Source: Armatimonadota bacterium (GTDB taxonomy: Bacteria > Armatimonadota > JAAZEB01). Taken from it: 5,024 nucleotides of DNA. How positions within the stretch are numbered: position 1 is the stretch's first letter; every line of letters starts with the position of its first letter. Under the pieces are notes generated by a model. It was given only the letters and a program-made list of their open reading frames with translations, was not told the origin of the DNA and did not search any database. Below, piece after piece: positions 1-4,971 of the stretch. Where the stretch lies: contig DUUU01000555.1 of NCBI GenBank assembly GCA_012841485.1, positions 1 through 5,024 on the forward strand, given 5' to 3'. The translations under genes were made by a program, and so were the position numbers.

Positions 1-826
1 CCTGAGCGCGCACACGCACCACGGCCTGCTCCGGGCCGAGGGCCCTATCCAGCATGCTCTGGATCTCCCTCTGGACCTTGCGCTCGATCTGCGCCTGGAT
101 CTTGAGCTGCGTCTCGGCCTGATCCGGAGTGGCGTCCGGATCCTCGTCCGCCATGGCTTCCTCGGTGGAGAGGATGTTGCCGCGCGCGTCGATGAGGGTC
201 ACGTTCTCCGGCGTCAACCCGACGACGGCGCTGGAGACCAGGTGGACAATCCCCCTGATCTCGGTCTTCGCAAGGGGCTTCGTTCCCGAAAGGTGCAGCA
301 CCACCGAGGCGGTTGGCTCGTCGGCATCCTCCTGGTAGAGGGACTGCTCCGGGATGGTCAGGTGGACGCGCGCCTGCTCCACCTGAGAGAGCTGCATGAT
401 CGTCTTGGCAAGCTCCGCCTGAAGCGCACGCTGGAAGTTCAGCTTCTGCGTGAACTCTGTCATCCCGAAGGGGCTCTTATCGAAAAGCTCCCATCCAGGC
501 CCGCTGCTCTTTGGCAGGCCCTCGGTCGCCATCTTCATCTTCAGCTCGTGGACCTGCTCGGACGGCACCTCGATGGCGCTGCCCCCTTCGCTGATGCGGT
601 ATGGGATCTTCTCGGATTTGAGGCGCTCGACAATCGCGCCCGCATCCTCGACGCTGAGTTGGCTATAGAGGCGGCTGTAGCGTGGCTGAAACGCCCACGC
701 GAGGATCCCAAGGGCCGCAACCACGCTGATGAGCGCCAGCAGTACCAGGGTCTTCTGCCGTTGACCCGAAAGCTGATCCCACCGCTCTCGTAAGCGGCTT
801 GCGTTCTCTTTGAAGGCATCCGACAT
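1..826 (-). CDS. fliF: Flagellar MS-ring protein FliF (N-terminal 275 codons, cut by window edge)
   Basis: FliF forms the MS ring in the inner membrane, the base on which the rod, C ring and export apparatus are built. Translating the minus strand from the ATG at 826 gives an open frame of 275 codons reaching the window edge. The family pattern is clear. A short charged N-terminus precedes one membrane segment at about residues 27-46 (LVLLALISVVAALGILAWAF). The periplasmic ring-building region follows, with GWELFDKSPFGMTEFTQKLN (111-130), FQRALQAELAKTI (131-143), ARVHLTIPEQSLY (152-164) and the HLVSSAVVGLTPENVTLID stretch (195-213). Full-length FliF is usually about 500-570 residues, so roughly half is missing, including the second membrane segment and the C-terminal FliG-binding tail. 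The start is 83 bases after the fliE stop and has only a distant GGGGA, about 18 bases upstream, as a ribosome site. No better in-frame start is visible. It is the fourth gene of the flgB operon; fliG would be the usual next gene. Confidence 0.96.
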   Translation of the reverse strand, partial: MSDAFKENASRLRERWDQLSGQRQKTLVLLALISVVAALGILAWAFQPRYSRLYSQLSVEDAGAIVERLKSEKIPYRISEGGSAIEVPSEQVHELKMKMATEGLPKSSGPGWELFDKSPFGMTEFTQKLNFQRALQAELAKTIMQLSQVEQARVHLTIPEQSLYQEDADEPTASVVLHLSGTKPLAKTEIRGIVHLVSSAVVGLTPENVTLIDARGNILSTEEAMADEDPDATPDQAETQLKIQAQIERKVQREIQSMLDRALGPEQAVVRVRAQ

Positions 827-909: not shown

Positions 910-1248
910 TCAGAGCTGCATGCGCATGATCTCCTGGTAGGACTCGATCGCCTTGTTCCTCACCTGCAGCGTGAGCTCCAGGGCAAGGCTTGCTTTCTGC
1001 ACCGCGATCATGGCGGTGTGCAAATCCTCCACACGGCCCGTGCTCACCCTCTCCGAGAGGTCATCCAGATTCAACTGGAGCCGGTTTACCTCGTGGAGGG
1101 AATCCTTCATCATCTCGCTGAAAGAGCGCATCTCCTCAGAGGCGCCGGGCTGCGCCGCTTCGTTCAGCGGCAACCCCGGCTGCACGCGCTCGACCGGGTC
1201 CGGCACCGGCACTCGGATCAGGGAGTCACCCGGAAACGCGATTCTCAT
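910..1248 (-). CDS. fliE: Flagellar hook-basal body protein FliE
   Basis: FliE is a small rod-base protein that joins the MS ring to the proximal rod and is among the first substrates of the flagellar type III export machine. The 112-residue product has the usual FliE length (about 100-115). Its N-terminal 40 residues are variable and proline-rich. A helical region from about residue 41 leads into the diagnostic C-terminus, DLHTAMIAVQKASLALEL (75-92) followed by TLQVRNKAIESYQEIMRMQL (93-112). The family hallmarks are VRNK and YQEIMRM. The ATG shares an ATGA overlap with the flgC stop, and a GGAG lies 8 bases upstream inside the flgC end, so translation is probably coupled to flgC. Placing fliE between flgC and fliF is a common arrangement outside the enteric bacteria. 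Confidence 0.96.
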   Translation of the reverse strand: MRIAFPGDSLIRVPVPDPVERVQPGLPLNEAAQPGASEEMRSFSEMMKDSLHEVNRLQLNLDDLSERVSTGRVEDLHTAMIAVQKASLALELTLQVRNKAIESYQEIMRMQL

Positions 1249-1634
1249 TGGCCAATCTCCAGCGCCTTCAGCGCCATGCGCTTGGCAGCGGTCAAAGCCG
1301 AAACGTTTGCCTCATAGGCACGTGTCGCGGAGATCATGTCGACCATCTCTGTCGCCACCTGGACGTTGGGCAGCTGAACATAGCCCTGCGCGTCGGCGTC
1401 GGGATGAGCCGGCTCATAGAGGCGTGGCCCCGGAGTCGGATCCGTGACGATCCCAGCCACCGCCACCCCCTCATCGAGCACTTCGCGGAAGGTCACCATC
1501 TTGCGCTGGTAGGGACCGCCCTCGGGAGTGCGCGTGCTCTCCGCGTTCGCCAGGTTCGTCGCGATGGTGTCCATGCGGACACGCTGCGCAGAAAGAGCCG
1601 AGCCGCTGATCTCAAATGCGTTGAATAGACGCAC
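1245..1634 (-). CDS. flgC: Flagellar basal-body rod protein FlgC
   Basis: FlgC is a proximal rod subunit exported through the flagellar type III system and assembled in the periplasm. The product is 129 residues, slightly below the usual 134-150. Family marks in order are the N-terminal rod motif TNLANAEST (27-34 region), PYQRKMVTF (41-49), the stretch DPTPGPRLYEPAHPDADAQG (65-84) followed by YVQLPNV, and the C-terminal MVDMISATRAYEANV (97-111). The start is GTG at 1634, one base after the flgB stop. A good GGGAGG sits 7 bases upstream inside the end of flgB, which supports this start and suggests translational coupling. The 3' end overlaps fliE by four bases. Confidence 0.97.
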   Translation of the reverse strand: MRLFNAFEISGSALSAQRVRMDTIATNLANAESTRTPEGGPYQRKMVTFREVLDEGVAVAGIVTDPTPGPRLYEPAHPDADAQGYVQLPNVQVATEMVDMISATRAYEANVSALTAAKRMALKALEIGQ

Positions 1635-1635
1635 G

Positions 1636-2016
1636 CTAGCGCCTCCCTTCCGTGATCGCGGTGCGCAGGAGACGCACCCGAGCGGACGTCATGCGCGACA
1701 CCGCCTCATAGTGGAGGGCATTCTCGGCCATCATCGCGCCCTCCAGGTCGATATCGACGTTGTTGCCATCGGCGCGGAGTGATGTCTCGATGCGTTCCAC
1801 CCTTGGCGTCACCGAGGACACCTTGCGCGCGCGCTCATCTGGATTGCCAGGCGTGTCGAGAGCGCGCGCCAGGGCTTCCTCGAAACGGACCACCGAACGC
1901 TTGTAGCCAGGCGTATCGATGTTGGCCAGGTTCTGGGCCATGGCCCGCTGCCGGATGGCCGCCGCATCGAGCGACCGCTCCAGCGCGCCCCAGGTTGCAT
2001 CCTGCAGGAATCCCAT
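1636..2016 (-). CDS. flgB: Flagellar basal-body rod protein FlgB
   Basis: FlgB is the proximal rod subunit nearest the MS ring/FliE and is exported by the flagellar type III machine. The product from the chosen start is 126 residues. It carries the rod-protein signature NLANIDTPGYK (29-39), which includes the Asn-Asp-Pro-Gly-Tyr core of the FlgB/FlgC/FlgF/FlgG family, and DGNNVDIDLEGAMMAENALH (83-102), typical of FlgB. An in-frame ATG four codons upstream (2028) would give 130 residues. I prefer 2016 because GGAGGT lies just before it and overlaps the upstream ATG's own first codons, and because the resulting N-terminus matches FlgB spacing to the NLAN motif. It is the first gene of the flgB-flgC-fliE-fliF operon and lies about 53 bases downstream of the predicted sigma-54 transcription start. 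Confidence 0.96.
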   Translation of the reverse strand: MGFLQDATWGALERSLDAAAIRQRAMAQNLANIDTPGYKRSVVRFEEALARALDTPGNPDERARKVSSVTPRVERIETSLRADGNNVDIDLEGAMMAENALHYEAVSRMTSARVRLLRTAITEGRR

Positions 2017-2020
2017 GGGC

Positions 2021-2026
2021 ACCTCC
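2021..2026 (-). promoter_or_regulatory. Ribosome binding site that decides the flgB start
   Basis: GGAGGT on the minus strand, with GGAGG ending 5 bases before the ATG at 2016. The alternative ATG at 2028 lies directly before this site and would place it inside the coding region, so initiation at 2016 is the better reading. Confidence 0.65.
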
Positions 2027-2079
2027 ATACAACGTTAGCCAGCCCCCCCAAAGGGAGCGATAGACCCGGAAAGGTATTC

Positions 2080-2097
2080 CGCAAGCAGGGTGCCGCG
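2080..2097 (-). promoter_or_regulatory. Sigma-54 (-24/-12) promoter of the flgB operon
   Basis: The minus strand reads CGCGGCACCCTGCTTGCG. The invariant GG (2094-2093) and GC (2082-2081) are exactly 10 bases apart. The flanking bases match the known consensus TGGCAC-N5-TTGC except for the first T, which is C here. The predicted start of transcription is near 2069, giving a leader of about 53 bases before the flgB ATG at 2016. The position, in the gap directly between rpoN and the first rod gene, is what a sigma-54-dependent flagellar operon would show. The same core (CGCGGCAC...TTGC) recurs upstream of rpoN at 4177-4194. The assignment rests on sequence match and position. Confidence 0.82.
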
Positions 2098-2412: not shown

Positions 2413-3795
2413 TCAGCGGGAAGCGCGATAGGCGCGCCGGCGCTCTGCATAGGAGGGAATACCCAGCTCCTCGCGGTACTTGCTCACCGTGCGCCGGGCG
2501 ATGTTGATGCCATCGGTTCGCAACCGGTCCGCGATATCATCGTCCCGGAGCGGCGCGGCAGGATCCTCGGAGTGCAGCAACGCCTCGATCCGCCGCTTGA
2601 TAGCACCGGCCACGTCAAAGAAGACCTCGAACGGCACGATGCTGCCCGAGGGGAGCTCGACGCATTTGCCGATGGTGGCACGACAGACGGTTGACTCGCT
2701 CAGGCCCATCTGGAGCGCGACGTCGCGCCGGGTGAGCGGACGGAGGGCGCGCGCATCGCCATCCACAAAGGCCCGCTGCTGGGCGATCACGTACTCCGTC
2801 ACCCGCTGCAGCGTGCGCGCACGCCGTGCCAACCCCTTGAGCAGGAATCGCGCCCGGTCGAGCGCCTCAAGCACATGGCTTCGCTCATCCTCGCTAAACG
2901 TGCCCTTCCCGCGCTGCATTGCCCGGCAGATATTCTGATACTCGCGGTTGATGCACAGCGAGGAAGCCTGGAGGCCGATGTCGGTCACCTCCACCCGGTA
3001 GCCAGCGCTCGTGCGCCGCACGCATACATCGGGGATCAGCGGGGCTTCCTGGGTGTTCATCTCCCAGGGGGCCCGCGTTCCCTGCCCCGGGTAGGGCACC
3101 AAGCGCCGGCGGATGAAGGCATAGCCTTCCTGTATACTCTGCTCGCTATAGCCCAGGTGGCGCGACATCGCCTCGAAATCCTGGCGGATCAAGAGGTCCC
3201 AACCGCGTTCGAGAATCTCACCGGCGAGAGTGGCAGCCTGGTCTTCCACCCAATTGCCGGCGCGGAGCTGAAGCAGCAGGCACTCCCGGAGGTCGCGTGC
3301 TCCCACCCCGGGCGGGTCCAATGCCTGAATGATGTGCAGCACCGCCTCGACCGCATCCAGGCTCTTGCCCAGTTCATCGGCCACCTCGAGGAGAGGCACG
3401 CTCAGATAGCCGTTGTCATCGATGCACTCGATCAGATAGCGACCGATGGCGCGCTCTTCGGGCATGCTGACGATCACGAACTGGCGCCAGAGATGGTCGC
3501 GCAGCGTTTCATGGGCCGGCAGATCCGCGGCGAAATCGGACTCCTCGTCATCGGGCGCACGCCCTCCCCACCGGGACGCCGTGTCCAGCACGGGCGTGGT
3601 GGGAAAAGGGGACGTGAAGGGTGTCGCCACGTCGGAAACGGTCTCGCGCAGATCCAGAGCCGGGTTGTTCTCTAGCTCCTCTTCCAGATGATTGCGAAGC
3701 TCCTCCGCGTTCATGCGGAGAATCGTGCTCGCGACGATCTGCTCCGGGATCATCCGGACAGACATCTCTTGCCGGAGGCTGAGCGTTTGATCCAC
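2413..3795 (-). CDS. rpoN: RNA polymerase sigma-54 factor RpoN
   Basis: Sigma-54 directs RNA polymerase to -24/-12 promoters and needs an AAA+ enhancer-binding activator to open DNA. The 460-residue product is full length (family about 430-500). Region I is at about 1-50 and ends in EELENNPALDL. An acidic, low-conservation linker follows (about 51-90). The core-binding domain runs from about 91 to 270 and includes YLIECIDDNGYLSVPLLEVA (120-139) and ALDPPGVGARDLRECLLLQL (158-177). The helix-turn-helix is at about 356-384 (RRDVALQMGLSESTVCRATI...). The signature RpoN box ARRTVSKYRE is at 433-442. The start is GTG at 3795, with GGGAG 7 bases upstream. The recognition region departs from the usual family pattern: Cys371 replaces the common Ser of STVSR, GKC replaces NKY, and PSG replaces PRG. 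This suggests a divergent or specialised copy. It is preceded by its own predicted sigma-54 promoter and followed by the flgB operon. Confidence 0.97.
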   Translation of the reverse strand: MDQTLSLRQEMSVRMIPEQIVASTILRMNAEELRNHLEEELENNPALDLRETVSDVATPFTSPFPTTPVLDTASRWGGRAPDDEESDFAADLPAHETLRDHLWRQFVIVSMPEERAIGRYLIECIDDNGYLSVPLLEVADELGKSLDAVEAVLHIIQALDPPGVGARDLRECLLLQLRAGNWVEDQAATLAGEILERGWDLLIRQDFEAMSRHLGYSEQSIQEGYAFIRRRLVPYPGQGTRAPWEMNTQEAPLIPDVCVRRTSAGYRVEVTDIGLQASSLCINREYQNICRAMQRGKGTFSEDERSHVLEALDRARFLLKGLARRARTLQRVTEYVIAQQRAFVDGDARALRPLTRRDVALQMGLSESTVCRATIGKCVELPSGSIVPFEVFFDVAGAIKRRIEALLHSEDPAAPLRDDDIADRLRTDGINIARRTVSKYREELGIPSYAERRRAYRASR

Positions 3796-3868
3796 GACGG
3801 AACTCCCACAGTGCCCGCGTCGTCACAATACTGTCTGCTCCCGGTCCCGCTCCATTCGCAAGGGGGCG

Positions 3869-3884
3869 GCCTGATCACTCAGGC
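3869..3884 (-). repeat. Hairpin with GNRA-type tetraloop in the rpoN leader
   Basis: The minus strand has GCCTGA-GTGA-TCAGGC, a perfect 6-base stem closed by a GTGA loop. In RNA this fits the stable GNRA tetraloop class. It ends 73 bases before the rpoN start codon. A regulatory or stabilising role is possible but not shown. Confidence 0.45.
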
Positions 3885-3907
3885 GGCGGACGCACCTTTT
3901 CAGACGC

Positions 3908-3927
3908 GCGCTAGCGCCGCTTAAGCG
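3908..3927. repeat. Two abutting 10-base palindromes upstream of rpoN
   Basis: GCGCTAGCGC (3908-3917) and CGCTTAAGCG (3918-3927) are each perfect palindromes and lie directly side by side, 113-132 bases upstream of the rpoN start. They share the half-site CGCT/AGCG. Such a tandem arrangement could be a paired operator for a dimeric regulator, or a cruciform or RNA hairpin element. The binding protein is unknown. Confidence 0.45.
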
Positions 3928-4176
3928 CCGAGCCAAGCCGGCCGAACGAAGAGACGGAGGCCCCCCAGCGCCCTCTCAGGGCAGCTCGGGGCGGCGGCTC
4001 CTCACAGAACATCGGGCCAGCCGTGCAGCGTGCTCACGGCTAGCAGAAGGCAGGATCAGGATCACGGGGATCGCAACGTTGTGGAGGGTCTCCACAGCGT
4101 CGGTTCCCGACGCGAGCGTATGATGCAGGCCGAGCGACAGTCGGCCGGCGGCATCCTGGCCCCATCATATACCTAC

Positions 4177-4194
4177 TGCAATCTGCGTGCCGCG
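4177..4194 (-). promoter_or_regulatory. Sigma-54 (-24/-12) promoter upstream of rpoN
   Basis: The minus strand reads CGCGGCACGCAGATTGCA. The invariant GG (4191-4190) and GC (4179-4178) are 10 bases apart. GGCACG-N4-TTGCA is a near-complete match to the known consensus TGGCACG-N4-TTGCA, with C in place of the first T. It lies just after the histidine kinase stop codon, with the predicted start of transcription near 4166. The next gene on this strand is rpoN itself, so the sigma factor probably drives its own gene, unless the true product is a short RNA or peptide encoded in 3796-4166. The core matches the flgB promoter at 2080-2097. Confidence 0.82.
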
Positions 4195-4207: not shown

Positions 4208-4936
4208 TCATCCCTCCTGCGGGAGATCAACGATCGCGCGTACCCCCGTGGGGGATCCGTTCTCGATCCGAAGGTGGCCGTTCTGCCGCGAGACGAACTG
4301 CGCGCAGAGGGTCAGCCCGATCCCGTTCTGACGCTGGCGCGTCGAGAAGAACGGCTCGGTGATCCGCGGGAGGATGTCCGGGGCAATGCCCGAACCCTCA
4401 TCGGCCACTACCAGGCGCACCCACTTCTCGCCTTCGCGGCTGTTCTCGGTCCGGATCGTGATCGTGCCGCCCTCCGGCATCGCCTCGGCGGCGTTCTGGA
4501 GCAGGTTGACCAGCACATGGCGCGTGAGCTCCGGATCGATGTTTGCCGTGGGCTCCCAGGCTTCCCGCTCCAGGGCAAGAGAGATCCCCTCTGGAACCTG
4601 GAAAAGATCGAGCGCCCGCTGTATGAGCTCGTGAAGATCGGTGGGAATCGGTCGCAACTCGGGCGGGCGCGCAAGCAGCGCGAGCCGATCGAGGGCACGG
4701 GCGCACTTCTCTGCCTCCGAGAGAAGCATGCCCACATACACCCGGCACTGGTCGGCAGGGACAGGCTCGCCCTCTTCCAGCATGCGTTCGAGAAGTTGCC
4801 CGCAGCCGAGAATGGCGGCAAGTGGGTTGCTCATGTTGTGGACAAGGCAGCGCGTGAAACGCTGGAGGAGCTGGTCCGCATCCATTGCAGCCAGACCCGA
4901 TCGGCGGTCACCCGCTGCCCCTACATCGCCTTGCAT
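4208..4936 (-). CDS. Soluble sensorless histidine kinase, NtrB/FlgS-like
   Basis: A two-component histidine kinase that would autophosphorylate on His and pass phosphate to a response regulator. From the chosen start it is 242 residues. The dimerisation/phosphoacceptor domain has His33 in HNMSNPLAAI (33-42), followed by a helical stretch to about 90. The ATP-binding domain has the N box NLLQNAAEA (144-152), G1 box DEGSGI (179-184), F box EPFFST (194-199) and a G2 region NGIGLTLC (204-211). There are no membrane segments and no PAS, GAF or other sensor domain, only about 30 residues before the H box. The closest known styles are NtrB/AtoS/FlgS kinases, which partner sigma-54 activators. Its place directly upstream of rpoN and rod genes supports a flagellar role, but that partner is inferred. 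An upstream ATG (4954) is rejected because it lies between the promoter -35 and -10 boxes. Another in-frame ATG at 4885 lacks a ribosome site. Confidence 0.93.
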   Translation of the reverse strand: MQGDVGAAGDRRSGLAAMDADQLLQRFTRCLVHNMSNPLAAILGCGQLLERMLEEGEPVPADQCRVYVGMLLSEAEKCARALDRLALLARPPELRPIPTDLHELIQRALDLFQVPEGISLALEREAWEPTANIDPELTRHVLVNLLQNAAEAMPEGGTITIRTENSREGEKWVRLVVADEGSGIAPDILPRITEPFFSTRQRQNGIGLTLCAQFVSRQNGHLRIENGSPTGVRAIVDLPQEG

Positions 4937-4942
4937 GTGTGC

Positions 4943-4971
4943 ATTGTAGCCCATTCGCGGACGCGCGTCAA
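4943..4971 (-). promoter_or_regulatory. Near-consensus sigma-70 promoter of the histidine kinase gene
   Basis: On the minus strand TTGACG (4971-4966) and TACAAT (4948-4943) are separated by exactly 17 bases, each one base from the sigma-70 consensus. Counting seven bases past the -10 box places the start of transcription at about 4936, which is the A of the chosen ATG. The message would therefore be leaderless or nearly so. This is one of the clearest promoters in the window and suggests housekeeping expression of the kinase. Confidence 0.8.

Follow-up and report, generated by a model that had tools for sequence, protein, structure and literature searches.

The flagellum-linked σ54 gene of an Armatimonadota bacterium, rpoN2, is preceded by a conserved -24/-12 element that is very likely a real promoter, the role of which is most likely to drive rpoN2 itself. 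The best explanation of the observations, which we consider moderately probable, is that a functional σ54 promoter transcribes rpoN2 as part of a σ54-dependent flagellar regulon in which RpoN2 exerts positive feedback. The window, i.e., the whole stretch of 5,024 nucleotides analysed here (contig DUUU01000555.1), carries on its minus strand the genes for a histidine kinase, rpoN, flgB, flgC, fliE and fliF in this order (Table 1), and its RpoN contains the AID, the core-binding (CBD) and DNA-binding (DBD) domains and the RpoN box ARRTVSKYR. The nearest genome found is that of the Armatimonadetes MAG isolate AS09scLD_344 (genome G001, locus L001), with an RpoN identity of 91%, followed by that of AS09scLD_256 (G002, L013), also from the Armatimonadota, in which the rpoN gene is split across contigs into two pieces with 62% and 69% identity. 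Genome-wide statements refer to these two relatives, which stand in for the genome of the window. Flagellar genes of the relatives were named by similarity, by Pfam for fliO, fliP, fliM and flhA of G001, and otherwise from their translations; Pfam confirmed the kinase and receiver genes of G046 and the receiver gene of G232, and tblastn the presence of flgB-flgC-fliE-fliF after rpoN2 in G002.

Table 1. Coordinates of annotated and predicted features in the window.
Feature	Position	Strand	Remarks
Histidine kinase gene	4208..4936	minus	HATPase_c; HisKA match under the curated cut-off; ATG 4936 taken as start instead of 4954
σ70-type promoter of kinase, TTGACG-N17-TACAAT	4943..4971	minus	6 nt from -10 hexamer to ATG 4936
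-24/-12 σ54-type promoter element upstream of rpoN, CGGCACGCAGATTGCA (GG-N10-GC)	4177..4192	minus	16-mer
Predicted +1	4166 (a G)	minus	12 nt past C of -12 (4178); computed from spacing
Predicted rpoN transcript leader, 371 nt	3796..4166	minus	inferred from computed +1
rpoN (RpoN2, flagellum-linked σ54 paralogue)	2413..3795	minus	460 aa, start GTG 3795
Candidate σ54 promoter of flgB, CGGCACCCTGCTTGCG	2080..2095	minus	weaker, 5.5 of 8
flgB	1636..2028	minus	Flg_bb_rod domain; named from position and similarity
flgC	1245..1634	minus	
fliE	910..1248	minus	
fliF	2..826	minus	gene cut by window end

The initial annotation had placed a GG-N10-GC element in the gap between the kinase gene and rpoN, on the strand of rpoN and with a transcription start near 4166, and both coordinates and spacing are borne out, the start being a computed one. 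The sequence CGCGGCACGCAGATTGCA, which is the minus strand of 4194..4177, has its GG at 4191-4190 and its GC at 4179-4178 with exactly 10 nt in between, and the element begins 15 nt past the stop codon of the kinase gene (TGA, 4210-4208). Transcription from σ54 promoters starts about 12 nt downstream of the -12 element, the spacing from which the +1 is derived. Compared with TGGCACGN4TTGCW, the 16-mer has a single mismatch (C at -26). Sites were rated with a simple score of 8 points beyond the GG and GC, built on the general consensus. Among 20,000 dinucleotide-shuffled versions of the 412-nt kinase-rpoN gap, 3 had an equal or better site on the sense strand; for the whole window, with both strands scanned, 10 of 2,000 shuffled versions did. 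A loose scan of the window allowing up to three mismatches gave 7 matches vs 8.1 expected, which is no excess over chance, and what makes the element significant is thus its almost perfect fit to the consensus, together with where it lies and the fact that it is conserved.

In L001, the element reads CGGCACGGAGATTGCA (L001:9605-9620) and is also located 15 nt past the kinase stop codon. The site is identical to that of the window in 15 of 16 positions and the whole kinase-rpoN gap in 77%; because 41 of 399 16-column windows of this gap are conserved at least as well as the site (3 of 387 when 28 columns are taken), the pair formed by the window and L001 is by itself modest evidence. The corresponding gap of L013 contains TGGCAGGATACTTGCT (L013:9848-9863), which differs in sequence and keeps GG, GC and TTGC intact. 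Seven loci have rpoN2 adjoining flgB-flgC-fliE-fliF (those of the window, G001, G002, G046, G232, G235 and G237). A site with a score of at least 7 stands directly before rpoN2 in four of them (window, G001, G002 and G237) and before a string of kinase, receiver and rpoN2 genes in two (G046 and G232), and the seventh, G235, has TGGTACAGAAATTGCT (score 6.0) before such a string. In G046, G232, G235 and G237, rpoN2 is followed by flgB-flgC-fliE-fliF-fliG, and the gene of a candidate activator, EBP-A, is found upstream on the same strand. The kinase and receiver genes of G046, G232 and G235 lie between EBP-A and rpoN2, and the site of these loci precedes the kinase gene, at a distance of about 1.2-1.3 kb from rpoN2, with no such site in the 700 nt next to rpoN2 (best score 5.0); the kinase-receiver-rpoN2 strings are presumably co-transcribed.

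The element of G046, G232 and G235 overlaps the last codons of EBP-A (L162:7897-7912, L173:10621-10636 and L164 minus 10395-10380, with scores of 8.0, 7.0 and 6.0, respectively). The same bases might thus both encode the end of EBP-A and act as promoter of the kinase-receiver-rpoN2 genes that follow, and because of this overlap the conservation of the element there may be partly due to coding constraint. Outside the seven loci, no site was found within 700 nt upstream of the RpoN2-side genes of G021, G034, G239, G240 and G004 (best score 4.0); in the stretches examined, these genes do not precede flgB. Among 40 further rpoN rows, mostly RpoN1 and including three RpoN2 already counted, only that of G020 reached 7.0, and none of the four named RpoN1 rows scored above 4.5.

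A σ54-type site is also found upstream of flgB in all seven loci, with scores of at least 7 in five (G002, G046, G232, G235 and G237), 5.5 in the window and 4.5 in L001; the relatives of the window site are CGGCATCCTGCTTGCG (L001:11646-11661) and TGGCACGCCGCTTGCA in G002. Because a site of 5.5 appeared in 257 of 5,000 shuffles of the flgB gap of the window, the case for this site comes from its place and its relatives. Across 480,207 scanned bases, a total in which about 4.9 kb of G034 are counted twice, 14 sites reached a score of at least 7, of which 12 are at rpoN2, flgB or fliO: six before rpoN2 units, five before flgB and one before a fliO-first operon (G001). The other two are located inside an ORF (C81:2841) and in G034. 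The scanned stretches were picked for rpoN, EBP or flagellar genes and the window and G001 are close kin, and these enrichment counts are therefore not independent draws. The reversed-pattern control gave a single site. This difference argues against the element upstream of rpoN being a chance match in GC-rich DNA, and so does its recurrence: GG and GC, the conservation of which had been named as a check in the initial annotation, are kept at the corresponding position of G001 and G002 as well as upstream of the rpoN2 units in G046, G232 and G237. What speaks for chance is that, in whole genomes, the pattern YGGCANGN4TTGCW is about twice as frequent as its reversed control (11 vs 6 in G001 and 13 vs 5 in G002). 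On the whole, we regard a chance match as highly improbable.

Two further sites concern σ28. TGGCAAGATGCTTGCT (L158 minus 17180-17165) stands before a G001 operon that runs from fliO to a σ70-family gene read as fliA, and CGGCAAGCAGCTTGCA (L159 minus 9400-9385; score 6.5) before the fliA-like gene of G002; σ54 may be placed above σ28 in these genomes. As a separate observation, two ORFs of contig C81 of G001 (10502-12106 and 44070-44420) both carry a stretch translated as GVSPTQPGRASLASSAVIYRRAP, and a similar one is present at L161:7520-8002 (C210); the stretch is perhaps a dispersed repeat.

The kinase gene has a σ70-type promoter that the initial annotation overlooked and of which both hexamers are invariant across the window, L001 (L001:8826) and L013 (L013:9059). 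The listed kinase start at 4954 would fall inside this conserved promoter, which makes 4936 the likelier start, and, given the short distance between the -10 hexamer and this ATG, the kinase mRNA is probably leaderless. The σ70-type promoter is a probable second, basal input into rpoN by read-through, which would explain how a feedback loop starts. A stronger version of this idea is that rpoN2 output stems mainly from σ70 read-through, with the σ54 site being used as a minor tuner or as the source of a leader RNA. Besides the conserved σ70-type promoter, this is favored by the length of the rpoN leader (371 nt) and by the presence of one weak terminator-like match between 3700 and 5024 (0.6 expected). 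However, the promoter core is retained although the predicted leader varies in length, with 370-371 nt in the window and L001 vs 121 nt in G002, and the leader has neither an Rfam match (none in the window at the gathering threshold) nor more than a slight folding excess over shuffled sequences (z of -1.78; 4 of 100 shuffles as good). We thus judge it improbable that the σ54 promoter plays only such a minor part. The absence of an Rfam family and the weak folding excess also led to rejection of the leader as a small RNA or riboswitch, and the reading frame of a short ORF considered in the leader, compared by eye in an alignment, is lost in L001. The leader contains an inverted repeat, GGCCGA..TCGGCC (4128-4146, minus strand), which L001 also has, though with a loop of another length, and which could form a hairpin.

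An important aspect of this locus is that the window RpoN has a paralogue in the closest genomes. A second RpoN, 37-38% identical to that of the window, is encoded in both G001 and G002, G046 has a second RpoN match, and in G232 as in G235 the two RpoNs fall into different halves of a 60-row tree. In this tree, the window RpoN falls on the side of the RpoNs from flagellar loci; support for the split is weak (59/88), L059, L064 and L120 fall on the RpoN2 side uncertainly, and this side is for that reason not used as proof of orthology. Differences in the RpoN box were compared as predictors of promoter specificity and were not interpretable. From the original proposal that rpoN is autoregulated, what holds is that a conserved σ54-type element precedes the flagellum-linked rpoN and likewise flgB; action of this RpoN on its own gene does not follow, as a second σ54 factor is encoded in the genomes of five of the seven loci (G001, G002, G046, G232 and G235) and either or both of RpoN1 and RpoN2 could thus read the rpoN2 promoter. 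Self-activation of RpoN2 is plausible. Positive feedback requires an activated enhancer-binding protein, and feedback alone does not make a switch; the proposed switch-like commitment to flagellar assembly is speculation.

The presence of two paralogues allows for an alternative wiring, in which RpoN1 reads the rpoN2 promoter and RpoN2 serves later flagellar genes, producing a σ54 cascade and not autoregulation. A second RpoN accompanies RpoN2 not only in the five genomes named above but also in G021, G034, G239 and G240, and there is a precedent in Mesorhizobium loti, in which, according to a passage of PMC3538637, an rpoN2 mutant retains expression from the prxS-rpoN2 promoter. Yet the sites before rpoN2 and flgB resemble each other in G046 and have the same sequence in G237, so that the factor reading flgB should also read rpoN2. 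Moreover, Xanthomonas campestris also has a second σ54 gene, rpoN2, within its flagellar cluster, and this paralogue is the one required for flagella (passage of PMC7280030), which by analogy would favor RpoN2 as the flagellar factor here. X. campestris belongs to another phylum, and the same passage mentions no σ54 promoter for its rpoN2. Both of these counterarguments are indirect. Weighing both sides, we consider a cascade headed by RpoN1 unlikely.

The activator of these promoters is likely an FlgR-like enhancer-binding protein. FlgR is known for its flagellar role and has FlgS as its kinase. Two strong enhancer-binding protein matches are present in each of G001 and G002. One of them, EBP-A, contains in G001 Response_reg, Sigma54_activat and HTH_8 (Fis-type HTH) domains by Pfam and is encoded on the same contig as rpoN2 (C81), about 24 kb away, with no kinase adjoining it in the ORF list of C81; the other, EBP-B, has a kinase gene just upstream. 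EBP-A is also found near rpoN2 in G046, G232, G235, G237, G004, G021, G034, G239 and G240. The GAFTGA loop of EBP-A, which contacts σ54, is GAFTHA in G001 and GAFTNA in G002. Of the 22 best EBP-A loci (L122-L143), 18 have H, N or D at the fifth position of the loop, usually the second G of G[A/S]FTGA, while a G is present there in all six readable members of the next eight loci. According to a passage of a 2011 survey (PMC3162934), changes in the GAFTGA motif mostly reduce or abolish activity; a figure legend of this survey gives D at the fifth position in FlgR and lists H and N as putatively functional. EBP-A thus resembles FlgR of Campylobacter and other Epsilonproteobacteria in the replacement of this glycine (D in FlgR; same figure legend of PMC3162934), but, unlike FlgR, it is accompanied in G001 and G002 by another enhancer-binding protein (loop GSFTGA) and by two σ54 factors. 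The literature search found no paper with both GAFTGA and GAFTNA. A strict pairing of the changed loop with the presence of RpoN2 was rejected, since G232, G235 and G237 have RpoN2 together with a G loop. Around the promoters, no convincing binding dyad for an enhancer-binding protein was found; at most one is shared, by three related flgB sites (window, G001 and G002), against sharing by at most 2 in 30 shuffles. A more far-reaching idea, which we put forward tentatively and hold to be doubtful, is that Armatimonadota have a private flagellar circuit, made up of RpoN2, a clade of FlgR-like proteins with GAFT[H/N/D]A loops in most members seen, and self-amplifying rpoN2 and flgB promoters, that would be insulated from RpoN1 and EBP-B.

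Transcription of rpoN genes by σ54 is already known elsewhere, and the present case adds an Armatimonadota flagellar locus. A 2025 survey predicts, in a passage of PMC12316311, that rpoN genes of several classes are transcribed from σ54 promoters and reads this as autoregulation, the candidate promoter described here being likewise upstream of rpoN; the string 'armatimon' is absent from its main text. A library search for papers dealing with Armatimonadetes, flagella, σ54 and motility together found none. The closest precedent, by analogy, is the autoactivated nifU2-rpoN superoperon of Rhodobacter capsulatus, in which rpoN has a weak constitutive promoter and a promoter activated by NifA and RpoN (passage of PMC6925177, citing Cullen et al. 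1994). The locus of the window is similar in having a σ54-type promoter upstream of rpoN, as judged from sequence alone. However, R. capsulatus has a single rpoN in a nitrogen-fixation operon under NifA, whereas here the gene lies in a flagellar locus and the closest genomes have two σ54 paralogues, and the order is reversed, with the basal promoter before the upstream gene and the σ54 promoter next to rpoN.

In the proposed circuit, the σ70-type promoter would produce the sensor kinase and probably a little RpoN2 by read-through; the kinase would phosphorylate the flagellar EBP-A, with which it is putatively paired; EBP-A would then activate the σ54 holoenzyme at the rpoN2, flgB and fliO promoters; and RpoN2 would feed back positively on itself and drive the flgB operon. 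The element, its conservation, the promoter type common to flgB and fliO, the σ70-type promoter and the two paralogues of the closest genomes are backed by the DNA itself, and from these we infer promoter activity, read-through, the pairing of kinase and enhancer-binding protein, and RpoN2 rather than RpoN1 as the reader. In all, a σ54-type promoter is kept upstream of a σ54 gene across divergent relatives, and a testable flagellar hierarchy is proposed for Armatimonadota. The locus thus lets one ask whether two σ54 paralogues within one cell are insulated from each other or wired together.
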